64,000 nucleotides of DNA from Acidobacteriaceae bacterium KBS 146 (GTDB lineage Bacteria > Acidobacteriota > Terriglobia > Terriglobales > Acidobacteriaceae): NCBI GenBank assembly GCA_000688615.1, contig JHVA01000001.1:4323001-4387000 (forward strand), in the 5' to 3' direction. The notes beneath the pieces are model-generated. The model ran no database searches. It had not been told where the DNA came from and saw only the letters and a program-made list of their open reading frames with translations. The position numbers were made by a program, and so were the translations under genes. Shown here in pieces: positions 991-33,532 of this stretch. Each line of letters opens with the position of its first letter. Position 1 is the stretch's first letter.

Positions 991-1074
991 CCTTTGAAAG
1001 GATAGTACGAGACGCCTCCCACCGCCTTGTGTTTACCTGAACGCGATTACAGGCATCTGCGAATTACTGAAAAA

Positions 1075-28098: not shown

Positions 28099-28175
28099 TG
28101 GTCGGGGCGATTGGATTCGAACCAACGACCCCCTGCTCCCGAAGCAGGTGCGCTACCAGGCTGCGCTACGCCCCG
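28099..28175 (-). tRNA. tRNA-Pro (anticodon CGG), integration target
   Basis: The 77-nt gene folds as a complete cloverleaf: acceptor CGGGGCG pairs with CGCCCCG, the anticodon arm CCTGC-TTCGGGA-GCAGG gives anticodon CGG (28139-28141), and the T arm contains GGTTCGAATCC. The CCA end is encoded. Bases 28099-28164 are the attachment repeat shared with 5464-5529, so the 3' part was supplied by the island. Confidence 0.95.
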
Positions 28176-28304: not shown

Positions 28305-28333
28305 TTGCGGTGCGATAGGGAGCCTTTTATAGT
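28305..28333 (+). promoter_or_regulatory. Promoter of the cys leader/operon
   Basis: TTGCGG (28305-28310) and TATAGT (28328-28333) are exactly 17 bp apart. The expected start, about 7 nt after the -10 box, falls at 28340-28341, on the ATG of the cysteine-rich leader frame. The rest of 28176-28304 holds nothing I can identify. Confidence 0.65.
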
Positions 28334-28340
28334 TAAAGGG

Positions 28341-28415
28341 ATGGCTAATTTGACACAGCGCGCTTGTTGTTGTCGCCGGATGCTCCCGTGTCCGTGTGCA
28401 CGCTGTTGTCGTTAG
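28341..28415 (+). CDS. Cysteine-rich leader peptide (24 codons), putative leaderless attenuator
   Basis: The frame ATG 28341 to TAG 28413-28415 encodes MANLTQRACCCRRMLPCPCAR followed by CCR. Seven of 24 residues are Cys, including runs of three and two TGT codons. It lies 120 bp before cysD, and the promoter position predicts an mRNA starting at the ATG. Poly-cysteine leaderless frames upstream of sulfur genes are known cysteine-responsive attenuators in mycobacteria; when Cys-tRNA is scarce, ribosomes stall and the downstream genes are expressed. The same logic here is inference. No classical terminator is obvious in 28416-28535, so control could act on translation or through Rho. Confidence 0.6.
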   Translation: MANLTQRACCCRRMLPCPCARCCR

Positions 28416-28535
28416 TGCAGCCGCTCCTTCTCCTGATAGCAAAACGAATGTTGGTCGCATCGATCAGCGTTCCTGATTCCAGAACGGTTCTCTCGAGTGA
28501 CTTACAGATCGAGAATTCCGGAAAGTGACCTCTCT

Positions 28536-29477
28536 ATGACCCAGACTGTTGCTCTTGACTCCGATACGGCCATCTCCCCAGCGCGCTTGAATCACCTTCA
28601 AGCGCTTGAGGCTGAGAGCATCGCGATTCTGCGCGAAGCTGTCGCAGAGTTTGCCCGGCCGGTGATGTTGTACTCGATCGGCAAGGACTCGAGCGTGATG
28701 CTCCGGCTGGCCCAGAAGGCGTTTTATCCAGGCAAGATTCCGTTTCCTCTGTTGCACATTGATACCAGCTATAAATTTCCGGAGATGATTGCGTTTCGCG
28801 ATGCTTACACCAAGGAGATTGGAGCGGAGCTGATCGTTCACAGGAATGAGCCGGCGATTGCGGCAGGGGCGAATCCTTACACGCTGGGAACACAAAATTG
28901 CTGCGGTCTGTTGAAGACGCGGAGTCTGCTGGATGGTCTGGCCGAGGGTGGATTTGATGCCGCATTCGGCGGGGCGAGGCGCGACGAAGAAAAGAGCCGT
29001 GCCAAGGAGCGGGTCTACAGCTTTCGCGATTCAGCTGGTCAGTGGGACCCGAAGAATCAGCGTCCAGAGCTGTGGAGCCTGTATAACTCGCGCCTGAAAA
29101 AGGGCGAGAGCATTCGGGTATTTCCTTTATCGAACTGGACGGAACTGGATATCTGGCTTTATCTGTACGCAGAAAAGATTCCTATCGTGCCGCTGTACTT
29201 TGCCACCGAGAGGCCAGTGATTGTGAGAGGCAGCCAGCTGACCCTCTTCTTTGACGGAATGAAGCTTCTGCCCGGCGAAGAGGTGCGAATGGAGAAGGTG
29301 CGGATGCGTTCGCTGGGATGCCATCCCTGCACGGGAGCCATGCGAAGCGAAGCGGATACGCTACCCAAGATCATCGAAGAGCTGTTGACCTTCCGGCGAA
29401 GCGAGCGCGAGAACAGAGCCATCGATCATGACGAAGAGGGATCGATGGAGGTGAAGAAGCGAGAGGGGTACTTCTGA
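28536..29477 (+). CDS. cysD: Sulfate adenylyltransferase subunit 2
   Basis: The 313-residue subunit adenylates sulfate with ATP to give APS, together with the GTPase CysN. The PP-loop motif reads SIGKDSS (residues 47-53). Family-typical stretches follow: [38 protein letters not shown] and [11 protein letters not shown]. Length is normal. I chose ATG 28536, with GGAAAG upstream; a GTG at 28497 would add 13 atypical residues. The stop overlaps the cysN start by one base, so translation is coupled. Control probably comes from the cysteine-rich leader upstream. Confidence 0.95.
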
Positions 29478-31126
29478 TGAGTGCGACTGCGACAAGAGAT
29501 TTTGAGGAGTTCTTAGAGGCTCATCTGGGGCAGGAGCTCCTACGCTTTACGACAGCAGGCAGTGTCGATGACGGCAAGAGCACACTGATTGGACGATTGC
29601 TGCACGACACCAAGAGCGTTTACGAAGACCAGCTCGCCGCGGTGAAAAAGAGCCGAGTGAATCGCGCGGCGAACGGGCACGTTGACCTCTCGTTGCTGAC
29701 GGACGGACTTAAGGCTGAGCGCGAACAAGGCATCACGATTGATGTGGCGTACCGGTACTTTTCAACCTCGCGCCGCAAGTTCATCATCGCGGACACACCA
29801 GGGCATGAACAATACACGCGCAATATGGCAACCGGAGCTTCGACGGCTGACGTTGCGATCGTGCTGATCGATGCCAAGGCTTATCTGCGTGAGGGAAGAC
29901 TGCTGCCGCAGTCGCGCAGGCATACGTATATTGCCTCTCTTCTCGGGATTCCCCACGTGGTTGCGGCCGTCAACAAGATGGACCTGGTGGACTATGCAGA
30001 ATCTACGTTTAGCTCGATCCGCGCGGAGTTCGTTGCATTTGCATCGCAACTGGGTTTGAAGAGCGTGACGGTGATTCCAGTGAGTGCGCTTGAGGGAGAC
30101 AATGTCGTAACTCCCAGCGCGAAGATGGCCTGGTATGACGGGCCGACGCTGCTCGAGTTCCTGGAGACCGTTCCACTGGCCACGGCCGACACTCGGGGTC
30201 CCCTGCGGTTTCCAGTCCAGCTGGTGTTACGGCCGGATGCGAACTTTCGTGGATTTGCAGGCCAGGTGGCTCGTGGTGTGCTGCATCAAGGTGATCGGGT
30301 GATGGCGCTGCCCTCACGGCGGGAGACGACGGTTCGGCGCATCGTTACCTGGGACGGAGATCTCTCGGAAGCTTCCTATCCACAGAGTATTACCGTGGAG
30401 CTTGACGATGAGATTGATCTGAGTCGCGGAGAGATGTTGATTCCTGCTGGATCAGAGACGCAGAGCAGTGGGCTCCCGGAGATTACTCGGCACTTCCGTT
30501 CGATGGTGGTGTGGATGCATGAAGAGCCGCTGGTCGTAGGGCGGACGTATCTTGCGAAGCATACGACGCGGAGCGTGCGCGCAACCGTGAAGGCGATTCG
30601 GTATCGCGTGGATGTGAGTTCGCTGGACCACGTGCAGGCAGATCATCTGGCAATGAACGAGATTGCCGAAGTCGAGCTAGAGACAAACCTGCCGCTGTTC
30701 TTTGACGCGTATGCCGAGAGCAGAACGACAGGCTCACTGATCCTGATTGACGGGCTGACGAACGCTACAGTCGGCGCAGCAATGATTGTTGGGGCTGTCG
30801 ATACGGAAGGCGGTCAAGGATCGCAGGCAGCCCTGGTTGTGGTGGCTCGCCGAGCGGAGCTGGCGGAACGTTTGCGTGACGCGCTCGAGGCCCGCGGACA
30901 GCGTGCCGTTTTGATTGATGATTCGCTTATTACAAACGATAGTCTGACTTCAGTCGTCCGGGCCCTGAACCTGGCCGGAGTTACGGCGATTACGGCTCGC
31001 GAACTGTCAACCGAAGCGTTGGCAGACATAGTGCGTTCGACACAGGCCTTCGCGGAAGGTGAAGTGGTTGTCGGCGATGGATTTGAGGATGACGAGATTT
31101 TGCGGTTATCGGGAGTACGGATATGA
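29477..31126 (+). CDS. cysN: Sulfate adenylyltransferase subunit 1 with a degenerate APS-kinase-like C-terminus
   Basis: The GTPase subunit of ATP sulfurylase has G1 GSVDDGKST (29-37), DTPGH (106-110) and NKMD (166-169), then two EF-Tu-like beta-barrels. It has 549 residues; an unfused CysN has about 430-475. From about residue 448 an extra domain reads AALVVVARRAELAERLRDAL, ARGQRAVLIDDSLI and LNLAGVTAITAREL. It matches the order of an APS kinase (P-loop, LxxxGxxxxLLD, then AGLIVLVS), but the GLSGAGKS P-loop is absent. I infer a CysN-CysC fusion that lost kinase activity, in line with an APS-reducing CysH. It overlaps cysD and cysH by short ATGA-type overlaps. Confidence 0.92.
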   Translation: MSATATRDFEEFLEAHLGQELLRFTTAGSVDDGKSTLIGRLLHDTKSVYEDQLAAVKKSRVNRAANGHVDLSLLTDGLKAEREQGITIDVAYRYFSTSRRKFIIADTPGHEQYTRNMATGASTADVAIVLIDAKAYLREGRLLPQSRRHTYIASLLGIPHVVAAVNKMDLVDYAESTFSSIRAEFVAFASQLGLKSVTVIPVSALEGDNVVTPSAKMAWYDGPTLLEFLETVPLATADTRGPLRFPVQLVLRPDANFRGFAGQVARGVLHQGDRVMALPSRRETTVRRIVTWDGDLSEASYPQSITVELDDEIDLSRGEMLIPAGSETQSSGLPEITRHFRSMVVWMHEEPLVVGRTYLAKHTTRSVRATVKAIRYRVDVSSLDHVQADHLAMNEIAEVELETNLPLFFDAYAESRTTGSLILIDGLTNATVGAAMIVGAVDTEGGQGSQAALVVVARRAELAERLRDALEARGQRAVLIDDSLITNDSLTSVVRALNLAGVTAITARELSTEALADIVRSTQAFAEGEVVVGDGFEDDEILRLSGVRI

Positions 31127-31818
31127 GCGCAATTGAAACCACAGTAGACTACGAGTCTCTAACCGCTGAAGAACTGGTGGACCAGATCGCACAGGCCGCG
31201 GCGAAGGGTTCCGTGTGCCTGACCTCGAGCTTTCAGACTGAGGACATGGTTGCGCTCCATATGCTGCGCAAGCATTTACCGGATGTTCCGGTGATCTTTC
31301 TTGAGACCGGCTATCACTTTGCTGAAGTGATCGCCTATCGCGACCGTATGGCCCAGGAATGGGGATTGAACCTCATCAATGCAATGCCCAAGACCACCGT
31401 GAAGGAGTTCGAGGGACAGTTTGGCAAACTGCACATCGTGGAGCCGACGGCATGCTGCCAGGCGCGTAAGGTTGAGCCGTTGATGCGCTCTCTGGAGCCG
31501 TTTGACTGGTGGTTTACGGGGCTGAGAAGGGAGCAGTCGCCAACTCGCGCGAACCTTAAGAAGGTCGAAGATCATAAAACCCCTTCCGGAAAACACCTGA
31601 AGAAAATCAGTGTTCTGGCCGATTGGGACTGGGCACGGGTGACGGCTTATGCGGAACGTGAGGGAATTCCGCAGCTGGAGTTATATGCGCGGGGATACAC
31701 AAGTATCGGTTGCGAACCTTGCACTGCAATCCCGCAGGAGGGAACGGACGCACGCAGTGGACGGTGGGGCGGAAAGAAGCTTGAGTGCGGTATCCATACC
31801 TTCTCAGAGAAGAGCTGA
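31123..31818 (+). CDS. cysH: Assimilatory APS reductase ([4Fe-4S] CysH)
   Basis: The 231-residue enzyme reduces APS to sulfite with a thiol donor. It has the four cluster cysteines of the APS-reductase branch: Cys111-Cys112 (TACCQARK) and Cys197/Cys200 (GCEPC), plus the catalytic Cys222 in ECGIH. PP-loop elements are SSFQTED and LETGYHF. PAPS-specific enzymes of the E. coli type lack the four cluster Cys residues, so APS is the likely substrate and no APS kinase is needed. The start overlaps the cysN stop. Sulfite reductase is not in the window. Confidence 0.93.
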   Translation: MSAIETTVDYESLTAEELVDQIAQAAAKGSVCLTSSFQTEDMVALHMLRKHLPDVPVIFLETGYHFAEVIAYRDRMAQEWGLNLINAMPKTTVKEFEGQFGKLHIVEPTACCQARKVEPLMRSLEPFDWWFTGLRREQSPTRANLKKVEDHKTPSGKHLKKISVLADWDWARVTAYAEREGIPQLELYARGYTSIGCEPCTAIPQEGTDARSGRWGGKKLECGIHTFSEKS

Positions 31819-31865: not shown

Positions 31866-32978
31866 ATGGTGGAGCGGCGACAGATTGTCGAGCTTTGGCG
31901 GAGAGGTGAAGCTTGTGTCTTAACGACAGTCATTGAGGTTGAGGGCTCAAGCTATCGTCGTCCAGGAGCTCGGCTGCTGGTAGCAGGGTCTGGAGACTAT
32001 GCCGGCACAATCAGCGGAGGCTGTCTGGAAGCGGAGGTTGTCCGGAAAGCTGCATGGAAGGTTCGGGATGGCGCAGTGTTGGAGCGCTACTCGACAATGT
32101 TCGACGATACGGCTGAAATACCATACGGACTTGGCTGTGGTGGCGTGGTGGACTTGCTGTTGGAGCCGGTGGACACCCCGGAGTGCGAGGCGTTGCTTTT
32201 GGCGATCGAAAGATCGCTTTCAGGAGAGCAAAGAACCGTCATTACATGGTTGCCCGGTGAAGGCAAGACGCTGAGTCGGGTGATTCTGGGCGAAGATGGT
32301 ATGCCTATCTTTGCCAGCAGAGACCTCCCGGAAAAGAAGCTTCTCTGTGCAAGGGGATTGCGGCCGGGACAAGTCTACGAGGGCAGGTTTGTCGAAGAGC
32401 TGCTACCACCGCAACGTCTGATTGTATTTGGGGCAGGCGATGATGCTCGTCCCCTGGTTGCGATGGCCGCGATGATGGGCTGGCAGGTCACCGTCGCAGA
32501 TGGTCGCTCCCAGCTTGCGCGAACTGAGCGGTTTCCCGAGGCCCACAGCGTGGTCTCTCTGGAAGCTGGCAAAGTTCATAGCCTCTCTATCCATGCAAAA
32601 GATGCCGCTGTGGTGATGACCCATAGCTATGAGCAGGATCGTTCTTTGTTGGCTATGCTGCTGCAGATTGCACCGCGGTATCTGGGACTGTTAGGAGCGC
32701 GCCACCGAAGTTCGCTGCTGGTAAGCGAAGCGGCTACGATGGCAGGACTTCCTCTGGAGACCTGTTGCGAGAGGATCTGGGCTCCGGTCGGTCTCGATCT
32801 CGGAGGCGAAGGTCCGGAGGCGATTGCATTGGCAATCATTGCTGAGGTGCAGGCGGCCTGTATGGGCAAGAGGGGATCTTCGCGGCACCTTAGCGTCCAG
32901 GACGTGGCGCGATATGTTGGCGAAGGCGGCAACGAAAGATATCTCAAGCGGCAGTGTGCTACGGATCTTGCATTGTGA
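31866..32978 (+). CDS. xdhC: XdhC-family molybdoenzyme maturation protein
   Basis: The 370-residue protein has the N-terminal XdhC/CoxI domain (VEGSSYRRPGARLLV, SGGCLEAEV, GLGCGGVVDLLLE) and the C-terminal Rossmann domain (LIVFGAGDDARPLVAMA, VVMTHSYEQD, LGLLGARHR). XdhC-type proteins bind molybdenum cofactor and help its sulfuration and insertion into xanthine dehydrogenase-like enzymes. It starts 47 nt after cysH and its stop overlaps the start of the next gene (GTGA), making a clear functional pair with the nucleotidyltransferase. No molybdoenzyme gene is in the window. Confidence 0.92.
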   Translation: MVERRQIVELWRRGEACVLTTVIEVEGSSYRRPGARLLVAGSGDYAGTISGGCLEAEVVRKAAWKVRDGAVLERYSTMFDDTAEIPYGLGCGGVVDLLLEPVDTPECEALLLAIERSLSGEQRTVITWLPGEGKTLSRVILGEDGMPIFASRDLPEKKLLCARGLRPGQVYEGRFVEELLPPQRLIVFGAGDDARPLVAMAAMMGWQVTVADGRSQLARTERFPEAHSVVSLEAGKVHSLSIHAKDAAVVMTHSYEQDRSLLAMLLQIAPRYLGLLGARHRSSLLVSEAATMAGLPLETCCERIWAPVGLDLGGEGPEAIALAIIAEVQAACMGKRGSSRHLSVQDVARYVGEGGNERYLKRQCATDLAL

Positions 32979-33532
32979 GAGTCGCTGCAGTCATCCTGGC
33001 TGCTGGATCTTCGCGGCGTCTTGGAAGTCCGAAACAACTGATCCGTCTGCAAGGAGAAACTCTCCTGGAACGGGCGGTGCGCGTAGCGTGTGAGGCCGGT
33101 TGCCAGCCGGTGATCGTTGTGCTCGGATCATCGGCGGAGCTGATCAGAGAGTCTTGCCCGCTGCGAGAGACTGTGATCGTAGTCAATGAGCGGTGGAACG
33201 AGGGCATGGGAACCTCGATTTCGGCCGGAGTCGCCGGTCTACAAGACGACGTAGACGGTTGCATCGTGATGACGTGCGATATGCCTGCGGTTTCAGCAGA
33301 GCACCTGGGCGACCTCATGCGCTCAGGCGAAATCACCGCATCGCGGTATGCCGAGCGACGCGGTGTCCCCGCCTACTTTCCAAAAGACAGATTTTCGCTT
33401 TTAGCGGAATTGCAGGGCGATACTGGCGCTCGCACGTTTCTGAAGGACGTACGAACAGTAGAGCTCTCCGGTGGAGAACTGGACGTCGACACAATCGAGG
33501 ACATGACGCGAGCACTGGAATTGTTCGACTGA
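32975..33532 (+). CDS. MobA-like nucleotidyltransferase (MocA type, molybdenum cofactor cytidylylation)
   Basis: The protein has 185 residues starting at GTG 32975, which overlaps the xdhC TGA. It has the GT-A nucleotidyltransferase signature AAVILAAGSSRRLGSPKQL at the N-terminus, VNERWNEGMGTSISAG, and the metal-binding MTCDMPAVS. The pattern is that of MocA, which converts Mo-molybdopterin to the cytosine dinucleotide used by xanthine dehydrogenase-family enzymes. Pairing with xdhC supports this over MobA (guanylyl transfer). The C-terminus ends ELFD, giving a normal length for the family. Confidence 0.88.
   Translation: MRVAAVILAAGSSRRLGSPKQLIRLQGETLLERAVRVACEAGCQPVIVVLGSSAELIRESCPLRETVIVVNERWNEGMGTSISAGVAGLQDDVDGCIVMTCDMPAVSAEHLGDLMRSGEITASRYAERRGVPAYFPKDRFSLLAELQGDTGARTFLKDVRTVELSGGELDVDTIEDMTRALELFD

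Follow-up and report, generated by a model that had tools for sequence, protein, structure and literature searches.

Mycobacteria reportedly possess polycysteine attenuators encoded by leaderless short ORFs, in which the ribosome-binding site downstream is said to be occluded and then freed by a ribosome stalled on the cysteine codons. In E. coli, the ribosome that is held near the stop codon of the tna leader conceals a Rho-loading region immediately behind it. The excerpted text of one paper lists candidate cysteine leader peptides in Mycobacterium and Propionibacterium acnes (cys operons) and in Bifidobacterium longum (cbs); its authors suggest Rho, cite the tna leader as a model and call the Rho-site evidence weak since the motifs are not conserved (PMC1262725). 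Excerpts of two further papers describe the uORFC-8-2 motif that precedes cysS in Rhodobacterales (PMC8632094) and, in a review, regulated translation of the genes downstream (PMC9031893). Among the open-access papers searched, we found none recognisable as concerning cysteine leaders in Acidobacteria.

A short poly-cysteine frame lies upstream of the sulfate assimilation operon cysDNH in the 64,000-nt stretch of DNA analysed here (herein referred to as the window), which belongs to Acidobacteriaceae bacterium KBS 146. The sequence-only reading from which this work started had described a 24-codon frame with seven Cys codons, including three and two in a row, ending 120 nt before cysD; its coordinates and its count proved exact, and the distance was confirmed by placing the cysD start at the ATG that sister loci share, the GTG at 28497 chosen by the ORF finder being an extension (table 1). 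The Cys codons are numbers 9–11, 17, 19, 22, and 23, all seven are TGT, and at the Cys frequency of the window's genes (1.0%) the probability of at least seven Cys in 23 codons is 2.3e-9, a value uncorrected for the search over frames. Like the mycobacterial polycysteine attenuators, to which the same reading had likened it in composition and position, the frame is short, carries contiguous Cys codons, sits at or near the predicted 5′ end of its transcript and precedes genes of sulfur and cysteine metabolism. It differs from them in its phylum and in its targets, since leaders of this kind here precede cysDNH and genes for a NirA-type reductase and an outer-membrane receptor; cysD, cysN, and cysH each scored above the cut-off of their models. 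Just upstream of the leader region is a tRNA-Pro (CGG) gene (window 28099–28175, minus strand), and close behind cysH on the plus strand are XdhC-like and molybdenum-cofactor cytidylyltransferase-like genes (31866–33532; matches below curated cut-offs). Rfam, searched at E up to 1, returned one tRNA and one match far under its gathering score, and nothing more.

Table 1. Features of the cysDNH leader region (positions in the window) and of the second poly-cysteine leader in the same genome (positions in locus L209).
Feature	Position	Strand	Remarks
−35 box TTGCGG	28305–28310	+	TTG and 17-nt spacer recur in relatives
−10 box TATAGT	28328–28333	+	7 nt before leader ATG; geometry recurs in relatives
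Leader frame MANLTQRACCCRRMLPCPCARCCR	28341–28415	+	24 codons plus TAG; conserved in relatives
First Cys run, TGT TGT TGT, codons 9–11	28365–28373	+	Kept in sister loci
Cys codons 17, 19, 22–23, adjoining stop codon	28389–28409	+	Read from sequence
Leader–cysD spacer	28416–28535	+	Weakly structured, no intrinsic terminator; candidate Rho-loading region
Predicted hairpin GAATGTTGGTC/GATCAGCGTTC	28446–28472	+	Not conserved in sister loci
Likely Shine–Dalgarno region of cysD, GGAAAGTGA	28520–28528	+	Aligned with GGAAGGTGA of sister loci
cysD, sulfate adenylyltransferase small subunit	28536–29477	+	TIGR02039 above cut-off; ATG conserved in sister loci
cysN, sulfate adenylyltransferase large subunit	29477–31126	+	TIGR02034 and NF003478 above cut-off
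cysH, phosphoadenylyl-sulfate reductase	31123–31818	+	NF002537 above cut-off
Poly-Cys leader of reductase gene, MAFDRTHLITTCRMCCCDRVRCRLCLPL	L209 870–956		Contig C1 near 1.040 Mb; promoter TTGACT-17-TAACGT-6-ATG
Intrinsic terminator after reductase leader	L209 about 996–1023		Hairpin CCCACTC/GAGTGGG, then TTTTTATT

The promoter with a 17-bp spacer claimed for the leader is read directly in the sequence as TTGCGG-17-TATAGT-7-ATG and recurs in relatives with the same geometry, and from its predicted position the transcript would be expected to start on, or within a few nucleotides of, the leader ATG. A generic promoter scan of the window did not call it because TTGCGG has three of six matches to TTGACA, where the scan requires four. 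A TTG-17-TA---T promoter located 5–11 nt before the start codon is present at 61/104 leaders versus 25/8504 control start codons (for a stricter form, 17/104 versus 8/8504), with a slight bias in favour of the leaders in this comparison as many of them offer multiple in-frame starts.

We compared the upstream DNA at 128 cysD loci of Acidobacteria, of which 15 come from a named collection; some genomes contribute a second cysD copy to this set, and in three pairs of loci the upstream DNA is identical. We scored start-to-stop frames located 330 to 30 nt before cysD with at least four Cys within 20 codons, a CC pair among them. Such a frame is present at 99 of the 128 loci (49/52 in the genus, 43/61 in the family and 7/15 in the named collection), and the promoter just before the start codon recurs, which is the outcome that the sequence-only reading had expected from a comparison of relatives. 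Control counts are low: 4/128 on the antisense strand, 5.3 in dinucleotide shuffles, 7/201 in intervals further upstream and 2/65 at the remaining loci, nearly all from other phyla (where the match at L040, an acidobacterial locus cut at a contig edge, is an artefact and was omitted from the other-phyla row of the combined promoter and frame test). At some of the 29 loci that fail, the leader is shorter, for example with three Cys at L098 and three consecutive Cys at L008. CysD matches occur in 53/60 genus genomes and 67/150 family genomes, both figures including weak CysH-like matches; two loci of the genus, L161 and L115, share their upstream regions exactly with the named loci L021 (Edaphobacter lichenicola M8US30, which NCBI now places in Tunturiibacter) and L014 (Granulicella sp. 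dw_53), respectively. Among nine loci from other families of the phylum, CCCC leaders occur at L298 and L300 and CxC-rich frames at L296 and L306, and the other five have nothing leader-like at cysD.

Loci of the window's clade (L087–L097) encode much the same peptide, approximately xxxxxQRACCCCRMLPCPCxRCCR, and other clades (lettered by CysD identity and leader likeness, not from a tree) have little in common with it besides Cys runs, for example MISFTQTACRTCCNACCMACCCCVQTWV and MRISCQLRCCCPFNVEQACRLTR. Codon choice is also shared: TGT makes up 247/330 of the Cys codons in genus leaders (75%) and 238/328 in other leaders, versus 10/121 in cysD of 30 genus loci (8%) and 57/180 in the window's genes. 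This preference for a minor codon would fit slow decoding, and effects at the RNA level could contribute. Two further leader types have distinctive features. Leaders of the CCCLSNIFDGC type (L015, L019, L169, L177, L181, L188, L194) contain an in-frame CGACGGGTGT that is conserved at the DNA level and for which a conserved CACCCG past the stop codon is a possible pairing partner; a U-run terminator was not found at these loci. In leaders of the QLRCCCPFNVEQAC type (L143, L145, L146, L149–L151, L154, L155, L157–L159, L161), a nearly invariant GCCAGCTCC stands right before the Cys run and may base-pair with a GGAG close to cysD, a pairing for which modelled Shine–Dalgarno (SD) accessibility gave no support.

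Cysteine leaders are not confined to cysDNH. The genome of the window carries a second poly-Cys leader, with its own promoter and followed by an intrinsic terminator, upstream of a siroheme reductase gene (table 1). The best NCBIfam matches of the encoded protein are to NirA-family and ferredoxin-type models, under their cut-offs, and CobG alone passed, narrowly. Such a leader is present at 8/9 reductase loci of the main type in the genus (L208 is without) and at 7/8 in the neighbouring family f2 (L221 is without), counts from which L222, L223, and L226–L229 were left out because each is a second match to a gene already in the tally; 10 of the 15 leader-bearing loci have a terminator. Among distant siroheme-reductase paralogues of the genus (L212, L213, L217, L218, L220, L225), none of six has a leader. 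Pairing of the L209 terminator arm with the leader was not better than in shuffles (0.394), and an antiterminator was not found there. The presence of a poly-Cys leader before the gene suggests that this NirA-type siroheme reductase acts on sulfite and not on nitrite.

In 11 relatives, a further poly-Cys leader points away from cysD (L362–L372) and lies upstream of a long ORF that encodes an outer-membrane receptor-like protein of 1052–1130 aa, the proteins being mutually 53–91% identical; these loci were chosen because they had been flagged for such a leader, and hence its frequency cannot be read from them. CarboxypepD_reg and OMP_b-brl_4 domains were found in all nine of the 11 proteins that were run against Pfam, and a terminator follows the leader in six of the seven loci that have leader and promoter inside the DNA piece analysed. 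A second Cys-rich frame close to the receptor gene occurs at 10/11 loci (antisense 0, shuffles 0.26 of 11); the automated count includes the first leader of L367 and omits the second of L362, and the corrected count is also 10/11. Eight of these second frames end in Cys-Cys-stop, one ends in CCCF and that of L362 contains CCCRC. The receptor gene thus looks to be under double cysteine control; beside cysD in the window itself there is no such gene.

The DNA between leader and cysD differs among clades. In the 120-nt spacer of the window no intrinsic terminator was found, as the sequence-only reading had noted, and the short pairings that it had pointed out near 28468–28491 show no conservation when sister loci are aligned. 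Folding of the spacer is no better than that of shuffles (z −0.70), and clade means of z are −0.26 (A, the clade of the window), −0.16 (B, its sister) and −0.79 (D), with −1.6 to −2.3 in C, E, F, and G. Across 105 loci, an intrinsic terminator lies between leader and cysD in 38, versus 6.5 in shuffles, and in none of the 26 loci of clades A and B. The leader resembles a classical transcription attenuator in being rich in codons for the end product of the pathway; unlike one, the window's spacer is devoid of the intrinsic terminator that these 38 loci and the genome's own reductase gene possess. The terminator-bearing relatives also recall uORFC-8-2 in combining tandem Cys codons with a leader ending in an intrinsic terminator, and the window differs from that motif in having no terminator, where uORFC-8-2 has two Cys codons, a conserved RNA structure, a cysS target and an alphaproteobacterial host (PMC8632094). 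Pairing between the 5′ arm of the terminator and the leader reaches or exceeds the 5% level of shuffles in 10/38 loci and the 10% level in 15/38 (loci within a clade not being independent), and in the other 23 the pairing is not better than 10% of shuffles. At L148 and L156, this pairing (−19.9 kcal/mol, vs −13.9 for the terminator) begins 10 nt past a Cys run, a modelled arrangement that is the geometry of classical attenuation.

We consider that the leader frame functions in cis as a leader peptide gene and ties cysDNH expression to charged tRNA-Cys, with a probability of roughly 0.85. Attenuation is well supported as a candidate mechanism by the conserved frames and promoters, by the terminators of other clades and by the reductase leader and terminator in the same genome. 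Transcription would start at or within a few nucleotides of the leader ATG, and a ribosome would translate the leader first. With cysteine plentiful, the ribosome would reach the stop codon and leave, and transcription would mostly end before cysD; with charged tRNA-Cys short, it would stall on the TGT codons and RNA polymerase would proceed into cysDNH. The off-switch in many relatives would be the intrinsic terminator; in the window's clade, Rho may load on the spacer, which is C-rich and weakly structured and part of which would be shielded by a ribosome stalled close to the stop codon. Such masking of a downstream Rho-loading region is what the tna leader does, with the difference that stalling in tna needs free tryptophan and induces, and here would result from a lack of charged tRNA-Cys. 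The leaders excerpted in PMC1262725 are similar in having Cys runs near the stop codon and no conserved terminator, and differ in belonging to Actinobacteria.

At the level of clades, the base composition downstream of the leader is compatible with Rho. C minus G over the 60 nt after the stop codon is 0.18 in clade A and 0.20 in clade B versus 0.11 in terminator-bearing loci, with 0.004 (sd 0.093) in 19 control regions of the window. A test for spaced C in G-poor sequence was passed by 23/25 sense and 0/25 antisense regions of clades A and B, including that of the window (ratio 1.92), compared with 9/27 ordinary window regions (Fisher 1.3e-5); in every other clade, the terminator-bearing ones among them, roughly half of the regions or more passed as well. 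The first 40 nt after the window's stop codon (C 0.28, G 0.23) are the least C-biased of clade A in a per-locus comparison in which the wrong frame was picked for L107. A rho gene is present in the genome (above cut-off). Rho-dependent termination in the C-rich spacer is our best guess for the window's clade, and if the frame is an attenuator, we would put Rho at about even odds, translation well below that and something unrecognised lower again; Rho was given no higher weight because the window's 40 nt are weakly C-biased and the spaced-C test is not specific to clades A and B.

Regulation could instead fall on translation, with the ribosome-binding site of cysD masked by the mRNA and opened when a ribosome stalls on the Cys codons. 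The closest known precedent, that of mycobacteria, reportedly works in this way and the window's clade is without a terminator; however, SD sequestration by the leader RNA, modelled in clades A, B, D, and E, was rejected because ribosome position had no effect. Mean predicted SD accessibility in clade A is 0.27 free, 0.26 and 0.29 stalled and 0.29 at the stop codon, and B, D, and E are similar, near-constant values from folding models that miss tertiary contacts and kinetics. A conserved RNA structure was likewise rejected: for clades A and B together RNAalifold predicted no pairs, and the five weak pairs around the stop codon that it found in clade B alone (one with a double change) were judged uninformative. 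We regard control at the level of translation as possible but rather unlikely. The high Cys content, and the conservation of the peptide inside the window's clade, might also suggest a functional, Cys-rich microprotein with metal or redox activity that stands before cysD by accident, but its length and sequence vary across clades with mainly the Cys runs persisting, its Cys codons are biased to TGT, differing peptides of the same kind precede other genes, and it has no match in Pfam or NCBIfam; we consider this reading very improbable. TGT/TGC repeats could in principle create a Cys-rich frame by chance, as TGYTGYTGY occurs 785 times in the genome (410 + 375), modestly above the reversed pattern (317 + 265); yet position, strand, and promoter recur in many species, the control counts are low and the 99/128 survey contradicts it, such that chance can practically be dismissed.

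The favoured reading, a ribosome-sensed attenuator, is an acidobacterial counterpart of a known arrangement: these putative poly-Cys leaders are a variant of the actinobacterial design, new in another phylum, with intrinsic terminators in many relatives and with modelled occlusion of the ribosome-binding site unsupported, a comparison made here from sequence only. The leader system is larger than the cysDNH observation alone. We lean, with a little over even confidence, toward a ribosome-sensed cysteine regulon in Acidobacteriaceae, in which TGT-rich, leaderless poly-Cys leaders separately control cysDNH, the NirA-type siroheme reductase (which would then probably be the assimilatory sulfite reductase) and a CarboxypepD_reg/OMP_b-brl_4 outer-membrane receptor that some genomes carry beside cysD, the last mostly with two tandem leaders of which the second usually ends in Cys-Cys-stop. 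One sensor would serve interchangeable outputs, either an intrinsic terminator or a C-rich spacer that has none, and the leaders would mark the receptor as an importer of a sulfur compound. The poly-Cys leader design would thereby extend outside Actinobacteria; clade-specific outputs behind one sensor form a natural series for studies of expression-platform exchange; and the leaders offer a handle on two ambiguous gene groups, namely the NirA-type reductases that may handle sulfite and the acidobacterial outer-membrane receptors whose import substrate is in question. Set against the excerpted text of PMC2965389 (2010), the system gives a clear signal and named target genes.

Not every gene of cysteine metabolism is preceded by such a leader. 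The combination of a Cys-rich short frame and a promoter was found for 19/39 frames at 30 cysD loci of the genus, a count that includes one frame in L114 belonging to a divergent gene, and for 6/25 at siroheme-reductase loci, and for 0/22 at cysK, 0/51 at TauE/SulP/cysE, 0/32 at sat and 0/53 at cysD of other phyla. The idea of a leader at all cysteine genes was rejected, since the cysK, cysE, SulP, and TauE loci are without a promoter-bearing Cys-rich frame. At sat loci, a short frame with CC occurs in 3/29, none passing the promoter test, and two of them (L272 and L280) resemble leaders; that of L272 (1327–1383, reverse complement) has five consecutive Cys codons and lies roughly 100 nt upstream of sat, which encodes the other type of ATP sulfurylase. 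In another acidobacterial family, a very Cys-rich short frame (MSSACSCCCSCLARAACCCACMRPATGW, L307 276–404) precedes a gene whose start resembles that of what is presumably a TauE/SafE-type transporter.
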